The position numbers were made by a program, and so were the translations under genes. A model generated the notes under the pieces. It made no database searches. It saw only the letters and a list, made by a program, of their open reading frames with translations, and was not told the DNA's origin. 64,000 nucleotides of DNA from Salinadaptatus halalkaliphilus (lineage in GTDB: Archaea; Halobacteriota; Halobacteria; Halobacteriales; Natrialbaceae), in assembly GCF_006543045.1 (NCBI RefSeq), contig NZ_RBZW01000042.1, forward strand, positions 1 to 64,000, given 5' to 3'. Positions 2,073-7,516 of the stretch are shown piece by piece (the first letter of the stretch is position 1; every line of letters starts with the position of its first letter).

Positions 2073-2219
2073 ATGGAAGGAGCAACGAACAGGGGTCAGG
2101 TGCCCAGCCGGAACCCCTGCCGGATCGGTGATGAAGTCGAGCTTCGATCAAGTGGACCCAGAGGCGATACCGTGGAGGTGACCTCTCGAATCCATGTCCA
2201 ACTTCGAAACCAACAGTGA
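2073..2219 (+). CDS. 48-residue miniprotein overlapping the primase gene
   Basis: A 48-codon frame begins nine bases after the previous stop. Its 3' end overlaps the start of the primase/polymerase gene by 26 bases. The centre (RIGDEVELRSSGPRGDTVEV) looks like one beta hairpin of a small barrel fold, a pattern seen in short haloarchaeal KOW/SH3-like proteins. The tight coupling to both neighbours suggests translation in one operon. I do not recognise the family, and the overlap could be chance. Confidence 0.4.
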   Translation: MEGATNRGQVPSRNPCRIGDEVELRSSGPRGDTVEVTSRIHVQLRNQQ

Positions 2220-4059
2220 AAACGATTTTGCCGGTCGAGAGACCGTCAGCAAGCAAAGAATCGAGGAGAGGCTACGTGAAGTAGGTGTTCGAGTCGCTCG
2301 GAGTGTGAACGTTGAGAATGGAACCAAAGAACCACATGAGAACGACCATACGAACCCGTCGAATCAATTCAGTCCTACCGACATCGACGGGAACTACACC
2401 GTCCACGGTGGCGACGGACTGGTCATTCTCGATATTGACGTAGATGACCTCTCCGAACTACCACAGTGGCTCCGAGACCTGCCTGAAACGTTCATCATTG
2501 AGACTGTCCACGGCGGGTACCATCTCTACTACCGTATCGAGGACGATGGCGGCATCTCGAACACCGGTTCGATGGACTGGGGAAGTATCCGATACGACGG
2601 GTGGGTCGCTATTGGTCCAGGTTCGACCGTCAACCACGACACCTACTGTAAAGACAAGTGCGAGAAAATCGGAACGGACGCCTATACCATCCATACCGAC
2701 AAACCGATAGCGGCGCTCACTGGTGACCATCTCGATGGACTTCGAGAGACTTGTACCGGCACCAGTAGTGGGAGGAGTCGAAGTAAGAGTGAGGAATACA
2801 GTGGTGGTAAAATCACCCTCCCAAACGATGAGATATTCGATGTAGGGAACCACATTCTCTGTAGCGAAGTCCTTCCGAAGACTGACCAGTTCCAGAAAGA
2901 CATAATGGACCTGCTGAAAGGTGGAACCGGTCGGTCAGAACTCCAGAGAGATGAATCAGAAGTCATCGACCGAAGCAGAGCAGATAGTGCCGCCCTCATG
3001 GGACTTTACGGTATCTTCCTCGAATACGGATACGAACCTAACGAAGCGGAAGACATGGCGCTTCAACTGTTCAAACACTACAACATCGAGAATCCTTACG
3101 ATAAGACCGGGAATCTCCGAAAGTGGCTCCAAAAGGGCGAGTCGTATCTGACCGGTGAAGGGGTCAACTGGGACGGAGTGATGGACGGCGTTCGTGAAGA
3201 CTTCGATATAGGTATCTGGCGAAAGTGGTTCCGTTCCGAATATGATGGGGGATGGGACCCCGAGGAAGACGAACCCTGGAAAGACTACGATAAAGACGGT
3301 AGAGCGAGCGATGTCACCCTCGATACAATTCGAGCCACGATGCAGATTCTCACAAAGGGTCGGAGCATCGAGGAGGTGGAGAGGATGTACCGTCTTGACC
3401 TCTCTACCACACACACCAACTGTAGACAAATGTTTACCCCCCTGGGGTCCACATCGGATTGCGATTTGCGACAGTATCCCACAGCGAAAGAAGTCGGGGA
3501 ACTCTGCGCCGAATTGAATCCTGAACGGAAGGCGTCATACTTCGAGGAGGAACTAAAGAAACTCTGTCGAGAGTCCGATGAGATTGCGCACGCTTACTGT
3601 CCGTACAGACCCAACGGAGAGCGCCATGTCTACTACCTCGAAGGACTACCGGACCCAGAGGATGCCAGGTGGGTGAAGGTAAACGGTGAAGAGCGAGAAC
3701 CTGAACCGGAGCCGAACGGTGAGGAGACGGAACAGAAGTTGATGACTGACGGAGGGATTGAAGCGAGACGAGACCTCGAGCGCATTCGAGAAGCGCGGGA
3801 AGGTCGAGAAGACCAGGGCGAGGAACCGGAGGTACTTGTATGCCCGATCGACGGGTGTGATCGAACAGTGATCGATTCTCCAGCCAACCTTCGACACCAT
3901 GTGAAACAGTCGAAGGACGACGCCCATCGGTTCAGAACGCTCAATGAGGATCTGGAAATCGAAGTTGACGAGGAGGCGTATTACTCGCAGTGGGGACCGA
4001 GGGACCAGACCAAACCTAATAAGCCGACAGTGAAGAGCGCCGCAGTGGTCAGTTGGTGA
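2194..4059 (+). CDS. Primase/polymerase-type replication protein with C-terminal zinc finger
   Basis: This 621-residue protein is probably the replication initiator of the element. Residues about 65-175 match the bifunctional primase-polymerase (Prim-Pol) N-terminal fold: a GDGLVILDIDVDD segment supplies metal-binding aspartates (D80, D82), and an HGGYHLYY segment (about 106-113) resembles the conserved His motif of the family. Residues 260-330 form a helical domain. The C-terminus holds a C2H2-like finger (C550, C555, H568/H569, H578) after a Glu-rich linker. No helicase Walker motif is visible, so unwinding would need another protein. A 7-base inverted repeat (GTGGTCA/TGACCAC, 4045-4063) includes the stop codon and may end the transcript. 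Confidence 0.72.
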   Translation: MSNFETNSENDFAGRETVSKQRIEERLREVGVRVARSVNVENGTKEPHENDHTNPSNQFSPTDIDGNYTVHGGDGLVILDIDVDDLSELPQWLRDLPETFIIETVHGGYHLYYRIEDDGGISNTGSMDWGSIRYDGWVAIGPGSTVNHDTYCKDKCEKIGTDAYTIHTDKPIAALTGDHLDGLRETCTGTSSGRSRSKSEEYSGGKITLPNDEIFDVGNHILCSEVLPKTDQFQKDIMDLLKGGTGRSELQRDESEVIDRSRADSAALMGLYGIFLEYGYEPNEAEDMALQLFKHYNIENPYDKTGNLRKWLQKGESYLTGEGVNWDGVMDGVREDFDIGIWRKWFRSEYDGGWDPEEDEPWKDYDKDGRASDVTLDTIRATMQILTKGRSIEEVERMYRLDLSTTHTNCRQMFTPLGSTSDCDLRQYPTAKEVGELCAELNPERKASYFEEELKKLCRESDEIAHAYCPYRPNGERHVYYLEGLPDPEDARWVKVNGEEREPEPEPNGEETEQKLMTDGGIEARRDLERIREAREGREDQGEEPEVLVCPIDGCDRTVIDSPANLRHHVKQSKDDAHRFRTLNEDLEIEVDEEAYYSQWGPRDQTKPNKPTVKSAAVVSW

Positions 4060-4825: not shown

Positions 4826-5172
4826 TCCAGGTGTAAGGGTCACCATATTCCGTGAGAAGAGCGAGAGGCGGATTGAGACGATCGGCGATGTTACCCTCTC
4901 CGATCGCTCGCAAGTCCGTGAGTGAGTCGAGACGTTCCGCTACATCGATGCGAGGGTCAGACCGTTCCTCTCGGTTCGTCCCCTTCAAGCGAGTTGGAGT
5001 CCCTCAAGGGTTCATGCGCAGATTCTATTACCTATGCGACCGTCTGCCATAGTGAATCGATGGAAGGCGAGCAGTCCAACTTGGTGACCAAGTTCACCCA
5101 AGGAGGGTTTTGGAGCCAATGAGAGGTGAATCCTCTCGCCGTCCAGTGAATCTGGATAACAAGGTATCCGAG
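4826..5172. other. Gene-free junction between element and tRNA-Tyr
   Basis: I see no gene in these 347 bases. A near-perfect 15-base palindrome, ACTTGGTGACCAAGT, lies at 5079-5093. The stretch ends directly at the 3' end of tRNA-Tyr, the usual integration target of haloarchaeal plasmids and proviruses. No second copy of the tRNA 3' end is present in the window, so the other junction, if it exists, lies to the left. Confidence 0.45.
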
Positions 5173-5246
5173 TCCGCCCTCCCCGATTTGAACGGGGGGC
5201 AAGTCGATCTACAGTCGACTGCTCTACCAGTCTGAGCTAAGGGCGG
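5173..5246 (-). tRNA. tRNA-Tyr (anticodon GTA)
   Basis: The reverse complement folds as a 74-base cloverleaf. The acceptor stem CCGCCCT pairs with AGGGCGG, and the discriminator base is A. The anticodon stem GTCGA/TCGAC carries the loop CTGTAGA, so the anticodon is GTA (tyrosine). The T arm is CCCCG-TTCAAAT-CGGGG. No intron and no encoded CCA are seen. The 3' end faces the low-GC block at 1-5172, which suggests the gene served as an integration site. Confidence 0.95.
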
Positions 5247-5368: not shown

Positions 5369-5941
5369 ATGAGCAAGATCACGTTTCGGGCCGATGACGA
5401 TCTCGTCGCCCAACTCGAGGGGCTCGAGCTATCCAAAAGCGAAGCGATGCGGGAGGCACTGCGTGCGTATCTCGAGACCGGCGAGCGCGGGCTCTCCGAC
5501 GGCGACGGCGATCAACGTGATCGAACTGCGACGGCTATCGACGATGTCGTTCGCGAGCGGGTCGACGAGCTGTTGGCCGACCGGTTGGGCCAACGCCGGT
5601 CGCCCGCACACGCAAACGAGACGCAGGATGTCAACGTCTCGATTACGCTCGAGGGTATCGAGGAGGGGAGAGATGTCAGACAGGACGCCCAACCTGCAGC
5701 GACAGGAACGGATGATCCTGTGTCGGGCGATCCGCGCCACGGTCCACAACAGCCACGTCGGACGCAGTGTGGTCAGTGTGGCGAACGCGTCGACGACGAT
5801 CACGTCTACTGTCCGAACTGTGGCGAAAAGGCGACCCACCGGCTGTTCTGTGAGTGTGGTGACGAGCTACGGTCGGACTGGTCGTTCTGTCCGGGCTGTG
5901 GCCGTCGGACACCCACAGCGGATGTCCTCGAGTCCAATTAG
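5369..5941 (+). CDS. cdrL: CdrL-type ribbon-helix-helix regulator with double zinc ribbon
   Basis: This 190-residue protein has an N-terminal ribbon-helix-helix domain (residues 1-42, MSKITFRADDDLVAQLEGLE then a helix-turn-helix pair). A long acidic, probably flexible middle follows, then four C-terminal Cys pairs: C134/C137, C148/C151, C161/C163 and C174/C177, giving two zinc ribbons. In haloarchaea the longer RHH regulator gene upstream of cdrS-ftsZ2 is called cdrL and controls that operon; both position and domain layout fit. The intergenic region downstream carries several palindromic GTAAGAC sites that could be its targets. The name rests on synteny and domain order. Confidence 0.8.
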   Translation: MSKITFRADDDLVAQLEGLELSKSEAMREALRAYLETGERGLSDGDGDQRDRTATAIDDVVRERVDELLADRLGQRRSPAHANETQDVNVSITLEGIEEGRDVRQDAQPAATGTDDPVSGDPRHGPQQPRRTQCGQCGERVDDDHVYCPNCGEKATHRLFCECGDELRSDWSFCPGCGRRTPTADVLESN

Positions 5942-5956
5942 CCCATTCCGCGACTG

Positions 5957-6128
5957 TCGTAAGACACGGGAGATTGTGTCTGACGATAGTTTTATTATCT
6001 AGGCCCGTATTCCGTTTACTCGCGTAAGACGGTCGTCTTACAACGGGCGGCAAACGCCGAAAACTGATCGCCTTCGGGCGGTTCCCGGTGTAAGACACTC
6101 CGCGTCTGACAGGGGCGCGCCGTCTTAC
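5957..6128 (+). promoter_or_regulatory. Cluster of GTAAGAC palindromic sites before cdrS-ftsZ2
   Basis: Between cdrL and cdrS there are seven half-sites of the form GTAAGAC or GTCAGAC. One pair is TCGTAAGACAC (5957-5967) facing GTGTCTGACGA (5976-5986). One is a perfect palindrome with 8-base arms, GTAAGACG-GT-CGTCTTAC (6024-6041). Another pair is GTGTAAGACAC (6088-6098) facing GTCTGAC (6104-6110). A single CGTCTTAC (6121-6128) ends 18 bases before the cdrS ATG. A TATA-like TTTATTAT lies at 5991-5998 between the first two sites. The layout suits binding of dimeric RHH proteins such as CdrL or CdrS; the binding itself is inferred. Confidence 0.65.
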
Positions 6129-6146
6129 CCAACGGGGAATACAACC

Positions 6147-6328: not shown

Positions 6329-7516
6329 ATGCAGGATATCGTACAAGACGCCCTCGAAAACGCCGAACAGGAAGCCCGAGAGATGGATGCCGACATGGAC
6401 GACGACGAGTTCGGCGATCCCCGAATCGTCATCGTCGGCTGCGGTGGCGCGGGTAACAATACGATCAACCGGCTGTACAACATCGGTGTCGACGGCGCCG
6501 ACACCGTCGCGATCAACACGGACAAACAGCACCTGAAGATGATCGAGGCCGACACGAAGATCCTCGTCGGCAAGTCGCTGACGAACGGCCTCGGCGCGGG
6601 TGGCGATCCGTCGATGGGCGAGCGCGCGACCGAGATGGCCCAGGGGACGGTCAAAGAGGTCCTCGGCGATGCTGATCTCGTGTTCGTGACCGCGGGCATG
6701 GGTGGTGGTACCGGAACCGGTGCCGCCCCCGTCGTCTCGAAGATCGCCAAGGAGCAAGGTGCGATCGTCGTCGGCATGGTCTCGACGCCGTTCAACGTCG
6801 AGCGCGCACGCACGGTCAAGGCCGAAGAAGGCCTCGAGAAGCTGCGCGAGCAGGCCGACTCGATCATCGTGTTGGACAACAACCGACTGCTCGATTACGT
6901 CCCGAACCTCCCGATCGGCAAGGCGTTCTCGGTGATGGACCAGATCATCGCCGAAACCGTCAAGGGTATTTCGGAGACGATCACCCAACCCTCGCTGATC
7001 AACCTGGACTACGCCGACATGTCCACGATCATGAACCAGGGTGGCGTCGCCGTCATGCTCGTCGGGGAGACCCAGGACAAAAATAAGACCAACGAAGTGG
7101 TCAAAGACGCGATGAACCATCCGCTGCTGGACGTCGACTACCGCGGCGCGTCTGGCGGACTGGTCCACATCACTGGCGGTCCCGACCTCACGCTGAAAGA
7201 GGCCGAAGGCATCGCCGACAATATCACCGAACGACTCGAGGCCTCCGCAAACGTGATCTGGGGCGCCCGTATCCAGGAGAACTACAAGGGCAAGGTCCGC
7301 GTCATGGCCATCATGACCGGCGTCCAGAGCGCGCAAGTCCTCGGTCCGACGACCCAAAAGCAAGCCGATAAGTCCCGAAAGAGCATCGAGGGACTGAACG
7401 ATGCCGACTTCGACGCGAGCAACAACGTCGAGAGCGGTGGCTCGAACTTCGGTGCCCAGAGTGACGGCGGCCGAAACGAAGTCGAGAAACAGAACGGCGT
7501 CGACGTCATCCGATAG
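6329..7516 (+). CDS. ftsZ2: Cell division protein FtsZ2
   Basis: This 395-residue tubulin-superfamily GTPase forms part of the division ring. An N-terminal acidic extension (residues 1-33) precedes the nucleotide-binding core [15 protein letters not shown]. The tubulin signature GGGTGTG lies near residue 130, and the T7-loop/GTPase-activating region is present in the C-terminal half ([15 protein letters not shown]). Sequence style and linkage to cdrS identify the FtsZ2 branch, which in haloarchaea acts in constriction while FtsZ1 acts in ring assembly. I chose the ATG two bases after the cdrS stop; an in-frame GTG at 6311 would overlap cdrS and is less likely. The short C-terminal tail ends GVDVIR. 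Confidence 0.96.

Follow-up and report, generated by a model that had tools for sequence, protein, structure and literature searches.

A cluster of half-sites upstream of cdrS-ftsZ2

The window analysed here is a 64-kb stretch of DNA from Salinadaptatus halalkaliphilus that includes cdrL, cdrS and ftsZ2 (Table 1). These gene names had been proposed in a sequence-only reading of the window, and Pfam bears them out. A stretch of 172 bp between cdrL and cdrS contains seven related 7-mers (S1–S7), namely five exact copies of GTAAGAC and two variants, GTCAGAC/GTCTGAC at 5978–5984 and 6104–6110, that each differ from it by a single mismatch. GTAAGAC occurs eight times in the 64 kb, compared to 4.7 expected, and five of the eight copies lie inside this array; the Poisson P value for five copies within 172 bp is about 3e-12. 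The array of seven half-sites described earlier is therefore real, and so is the perfect palindrome at 6024–6041, GTAAGACGGTCGTCTTAC. The three inverted pairs also stand, with spacers of 12, 4 and 7 bp when counted from 7-mer to 7-mer; the spacings first given (8, 2 and 5) arose because arms of unequal length were used.

Table 1. Features of the cdrL-cdrS-ftsZ2 region, in window coordinates
Feature	Position	Strand	Basis
cdrL, encoding RHH, middle and double zinc-ribbon domains	5369–5941	+	Pfam PF01402 (RHH_1), PF24252 (CdrL_M), PF12773
S1, half-site GTAAGAC, 5' of TATA	5959–5965	+	Sequence; clade-specific position
S2, half-site GTCTGAC (CdrS-type), adjoins BRE/TATA	5978–5984	-	Sequence
TATA-like box, TTTTATTA	5990–5997	+	Sequence; spacing to S3 across loci
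S3, left arm of core palindrome; also 5' arm of proposed RNA helix P0	6024–6030	+	
S4, right arm of core palindrome, doubling as 5' arm of RNA helix P1	6035–6041	-	
P1 interior with hairpin(s) M	6042–6089	+	Folding z, covariation
S5, partner of S4 in RNA helix P1 (3' arm)	6090–6096	+	Covariation
S6, GTCTGAC, restricted to Natrialbaceae-like loci	6104–6110	-	Locus counts
S7, GTCTTAC, proposed 3' arm of P0 (partner S3)	6122–6128	-	Conservation
cdrS, RHH protein of 59 aa	6147–6326	+	Pfam RHH_1
ftsZ2	6329–7516	+	Pfam Tubulin, FtsZ_C

Given the position of the TATA-like box, the five sites from S3 to S7 would all belong to the predicted 5' UTR. The last of them, S7, lies just 5' of GGGGAAT and the cdrS start. 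GGGGAAT or a similar sequence (6134–6146) is strongly conserved in all related loci, about 9–12 nt 5' of the cdrS start, and is perhaps a weak ribosome-binding site. Further upstream in the window, a Prim-Pol-like protein is encoded near a tRNA-Tyr gene (2194–4059 and 5172–5246). No second copy of the 3' end of tRNA-Tyr was found within the 64 kb; two related loci (L116 and L171) have extra partial copies of it, as integrating elements leave.

The central palindrome is nearly invariant in Halobacteria

Conservation was assessed by reading 80 cdrS loci and about 110 further loci, and by scanning 392 Halobacteria genomes for GTAAGAC-N4,5-GTCTTAC, with the reversed pattern as a control. The palindrome is present in 369 of the 392 genomes, as exactly one copy in 367, and the control pattern was seen in a single genome. 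Three of the 23 genomes without a match (G230, G350 and G364) have no convincing cdrS in the assembly. About half of the other 20 retain exact arms separated by a spacer of 2, 3 or 6 bp, and the remainder have one arm altered: the right arm in Haloquadratum-like loci, genus g65 and L104, and the left arm in L103. When Halobacteria were compared with other Halobacteriota, the palindrome was found in 31/33 versus 1/164 genomes, and outside Halobacteria its frequency is at chance level.

The position of the palindrome is equally constrained. The TATA element starts 30–34 nt 5' of S3 in 165 of 181 loci (32–34 nt in 149). From this spacing, transcription would start near 6020, putting the palindrome at about +1 to +20. 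Hfx. volcanii cdrS is reported to have a strong promoter/start site and a 5' UTR (PMC8406309). Across 183 UTRs, the 14 half-site columns of the palindrome show 0–1 parsimony changes each, compared to typically 20–50 for columns in the leader interior. Its near-invariance, its usual single copy in a genome and its constant distance from TATA strongly support an operator function for the palindrome.

Flanking half-sites differ between clades

While the palindrome is kept in relatives, the sites at 5959, 5978, 6090 and 6104 are partly lost. GTAAGAC corresponding to S1 is found at −65 to −61 relative to S3 in 55/181 loci, and this is the form seen in Natrialbaceae-like loci. Equivalents of S2 at −53 to −51 read GTCTTAC in Haloferacales-like loci (at −53/−52) and GTCATAC in Haloarcula-like loci, and no upstream half-site was found in others. 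S6 is present in 41 of 43 Natrialbaceae-like loci versus 2 of 138 elsewhere. Within the leader, S5 is exact in 129/181 loci and S7 in 165/181. The earlier idea of layered control by all seven sites thus survives in part, as the upstream sites vary by clade and the pair at 6035 and 6090 forms an RNA helix (see below). The leader copies of the half-site are not simply extra operators.

Several Haladaptatus-like loci, L146 and L147 among them, have a second palindrome with variant half-sites, GTAAAAC-N4-GTTTTAC, 5' of TATA. Another of this kind, GTAAAC-N5-GTTTAC, occupies the same place in L124/L125.

Palindrome retention does not require CdrL

CdrL was the natural first candidate for the reader of the palindrome, since ChIP-seq in Hbt. 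salinarum yielded one reproducible genomic site, located 5' of cdrS-ftsZ2 and mapped without base resolution (PMC7439475). A rival reading takes CdrL as a dedicated single-target regulator that uses all seven half-sites as its operators. In line with this, the single ChIP site matches the single palindrome per genome, and both CdrL and the palindrome are restricted to Halobacteria (for CdrL, PMC7439475). In CdrL itself, the strand K-I-T-F-R hardly varies. Upstream half-sites are found in 144 of 173 cdrL-bearing loci but in 3 of 8 cdrL-less loci (Fisher P = 0.007, uncorrected for phylogeny), and S5 is exact in 1/8 of the latter, a count likewise uncorrected.

CdrL is stated to be present in all sequenced Halobacteria (PMC7439475). 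In contrast, we found cdrL absent beside cdrS in eight loci (L116, L124, L125, L145, L171, L180, L181 and L203), most of which have a tRNA-Tyr gene directly upstream in its place. Masked sequence was rejected as the cause: none of the eight loci contains any, and a ninth locus (L172), in which Ns do form a run, was set aside. Whole-genome searches of these eight genomes detected no CdrL: the only two hits were short zinc-ribbon matches, with E of about 4e-4 and about 9e-4, against values below 1e-49 for each of three controls. Hence, cdrL has been lost in at least eight genomes from at least six genera. In some of these genera sister species retain the gene (both states are found in g45, g60 and g74), suggesting that in some cases cdrL was lost recently.

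The exact palindrome and S7 are kept in 8/8 cdrL-less loci, with no case among the eight of the palindrome being lost together with cdrL. In a class-wide CdrL search, 12 of 12 locus-bearing genomes without a convincing CdrL keep the palindrome (eight were scored exhaustively). These data show that CdrL is not required for keeping the palindrome. They weaken the CdrL part of the sequence-only reading, which had assigned the sites to CdrL and/or CdrS, and leave its operator part intact for the central palindrome. DNA binding by CdrL also leaves unexplained the covariation described below, and we consider it unlikely that all seven sites serve as CdrL operators.

The double zinc ribbon of CdrL (5760–5920) weakly matches archaeal zinc-ribbon RNA-binding ribosomal proteins (E 0.13–0.5).

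A shared frame with ftsZ1 promoters points to CdrS as a probable reader

In Hfx. volcanii, CdrS binds a symmetric motif 5' of ftsZ1, centred at −50 (PMC8406309, Table 1). We analysed ftsZ1 promoters from 30 genera and found GTCWGAC-N4-GTCWGAC, or a degenerate form of it, a few bases 5' of GGGGAAA and TATA. With at most one mismatch, GTCNGAC-N4-GTCNGAC is present in 23/30 of these promoters versus 0.1% of shuffles. Each 7-mer of the element is itself palindromic (L210–L239). Because its position fits that of the ChIP motif (PMC8406309), the element is probably a CdrS operator.

The cdrS palindrome has the same 18-bp 7-4-7 frame but reads A in place of C in each outer arm, such that a GTMWGAC-N4 frame is common to both promoters, the CdrS motif being derived from those of ftsZ1. 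The exact CdrS 7-mer GTCWGAC is not found in the palindrome arms (GTAAGAC), and only S2 and S6 of the array conform to it. As the two elements share this frame and differ by a single base in each arm, an RHH protein is the likelier main reader of the palindrome, and that protein is probably CdrS itself. The CdrS beta strand MERVTLRIP is identical in 191/191 loci, and CdrS is distantly similar in sequence to NikR (E 6.5e-4).

One caveat here is that ChIP-seq of CdrS in Hfx. volcanii identified 18 sites, with the cdrS promoter not among them (PMC8406309). The protein used carried an N-terminal FLAG tag, beside the DNA-reading strand (PMC8406309). This absence is one reason to ask whether, instead of CdrS or CdrL alone, some other conserved factor or assemblies containing both proteins might read the palindrome; CdrL is dispensable, and haloarchaea have further RHH paralogues (weaker matches in our searches). 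However, linkage to the locus is known for no other gene, whereas CdrS is always adjacent, has an invariant strand and has an inferred motif in the same frame. We therefore give this alternative a small chance and favour CdrS as the probable main reader.

Exact GTCNGAC-N4-GTCNGAC was rejected as a complete list of CdrS targets, as it yields only 3–4 sites per genome compared to the 18 ChIP sites; the true CdrS motif must thus be looser. A CdrS-type site was noticed in Haloferax marinum (L243, 1501–1518), beside a gene that by eye resembles Orc1/Cdc6.

The predicted cdrS leader contains a covarying RNA helix

The predicted leader of cdrS-ftsZ2 folds strongly (z = −4.1). To avoid circularity, 183 leaders were aligned by sequence only, and all 4-bp helices were scanned and compared with columns simulated independently on a protein tree. 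S4:S5 was the only helix register to exceed every simulated maximum (0.182 versus a null maximum of 0.121, 0/150). In this helix (P1), pairing extends beyond the half-sites, with bases 6042–6046 after S4 pairing with those preceding S5. In a second alignment of 75 representatives, these five additional pairs gave a covariation score of 0.360, compared to 0.170 ± 0.020 for shuffles (0/500) and at most 0.104 for slid registers. By parsimony, four pairs account for 46 compensatory events, versus 4–27 in shifted registers. The S4–S5 interior also shows a lowered folding z (mean −1.97 over 129 loci) relative to an upstream control (−0.24). Hence P1 (6035–6041 with 6090–6096) is a covarying, conserved RNA helix whose compensatory changes fall in the pairs beyond the half-sites.

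A second helix, P0, probably forms between 6122–6128 and 6024–6030. Variation is possible only in its two extension pairs, the second having 7 compensatory events, and the evidence for P0 (mainly this one variable pair) and for the inner hairpins is suggestive. S5:S7 was rejected as an extended helix, as complementarity of the flanks is no better than chance. The four segments can pair either as S3:S4 with S5:S7 or as S4:S5 with S3:S7, and the latter is by computation about 5 kcal/mol more stable on average (117 leaders). RNAalifold selects just the invariant S3:S4 hairpin, without covariation, which counts against the P1/P0 fold. Drift in S5 and S7 is sometimes G-U-preserving (GTGAGAC, GTAGGAC, GTCTTGC); the commonest S5 variants, GTAA-AC and GTAAAAC, each break one pair. 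No pair reached E < 0.05 in pairwise G-tests that used an average-product correction and were set against a tree null. Phylogeny and alignment noise dominate such tests, and pairing was scored helix by helix instead, in the scan above. There was no match to an Rfam covariance model at E up to 1.

We considered whether the palindrome and its leader copies might be kept mainly as a four-segment RNA, with the DNA palindrome read by no protein and alternative pairings controlling translation or mRNA decay. The P1 covariation, the P0 extension signal, the strong folding and the G-U-preserving variants of S5 and S7 would fit, but this is improbable given that the same half-sites occur 5' of TATA, outside the transcript, that S3 and S4 are invariant and never covary, which points to sequence-specific recognition, that the ftsZ1 promoter has the same 7-4-7 frame, and that ChIP places CdrL at this promoter (PMC7439475).

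A model for control of cdrS-ftsZ2

We propose, with moderate confidence, that the cdrS-ftsZ2 operon is controlled by a class-wide promoter-plus-leader module, made up of an RHH operator and a structured 5' UTR. In this model, GTAAGAC-N4-GTCTTAC over the inferred transcription start would be the operator for neighbouring RHH dimers spaced 11 bp from each other, with the clade-specific half-sites just 5' of BRE/TATA assisting this core. CdrS would most likely be the main reader, in negative autoregulation, because dimers bound at the start would obstruct RNA polymerase; CdrL, where present, would join at the same promoter region. Data from Hbt. salinarum suggest that CdrS activates ftsZ2, which argues against simple repression. 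In the leader of roughly 125 nt, S4 would pair with S5 to enclose a hairpin and S3 would probably pair with S7, and this folded 5' end beside the ribosome-binding region could tune translation or stability.

Bacterial RHH operators, such as the met boxes of MetJ and those of Arc, CopG and NikR, consist of short half-sites about one helical turn apart that bind dimers cooperatively. The cdrS promoter resembles them in its short repeated half-sites. It differs in that its 7-4-7 site, near-universal and as a rule present in a single copy, lies at the transcription start of an archaeal gene and has variant spacers of 2–6 bp. In the trp-type leader attenuators of bacteria, segments pair as 1:2 and 3:4 or as 2:3. 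The cdrS leader likewise has four complementary segments with two mutually exclusive pairings, a candidate switch, although here, unlike in trp attenuators, the pairing arms are at the same time operator sequences in the DNA.

The genes and the promoter studied here are those of the CdrS/CdrL system (PMC7439475, PMC8406309), including the region to which CdrL binding was mapped in Hbt. salinarum. The regulators are thus already known, while the base-level operator and the RNA leader are apparently undescribed. No operator sequence for cdrS-ftsZ2 was found in the available portions of these two papers or in a literature search lacking most subscription journals, and the same sources yielded no mention of palindrome persistence without CdrL, the ftsZ1 parallel or the leader RNA.

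For the question of how archaea time the expression of division genes, a precise, near-class-wide cis-element is now offered for mutation. This element is separated from CdrL, which has been lost repeatedly while the element is kept, and is tied to the promoter element of ftsZ1. Most messages in haloarchaea are leaderless, and a conserved RNA leader for cdrS-ftsZ2 is notable in such a group. A more speculative and quite improbable idea is that the 7-mer works twice, as the operator of an RHH autoregulator in DNA and as the arms of a switchable leader in RNA, and that the same protein family, perhaps through the zinc ribbons of CdrL, also senses that leader. If this were true, one repeated 7-mer would couple the transcription and translation of archaeal division genes.
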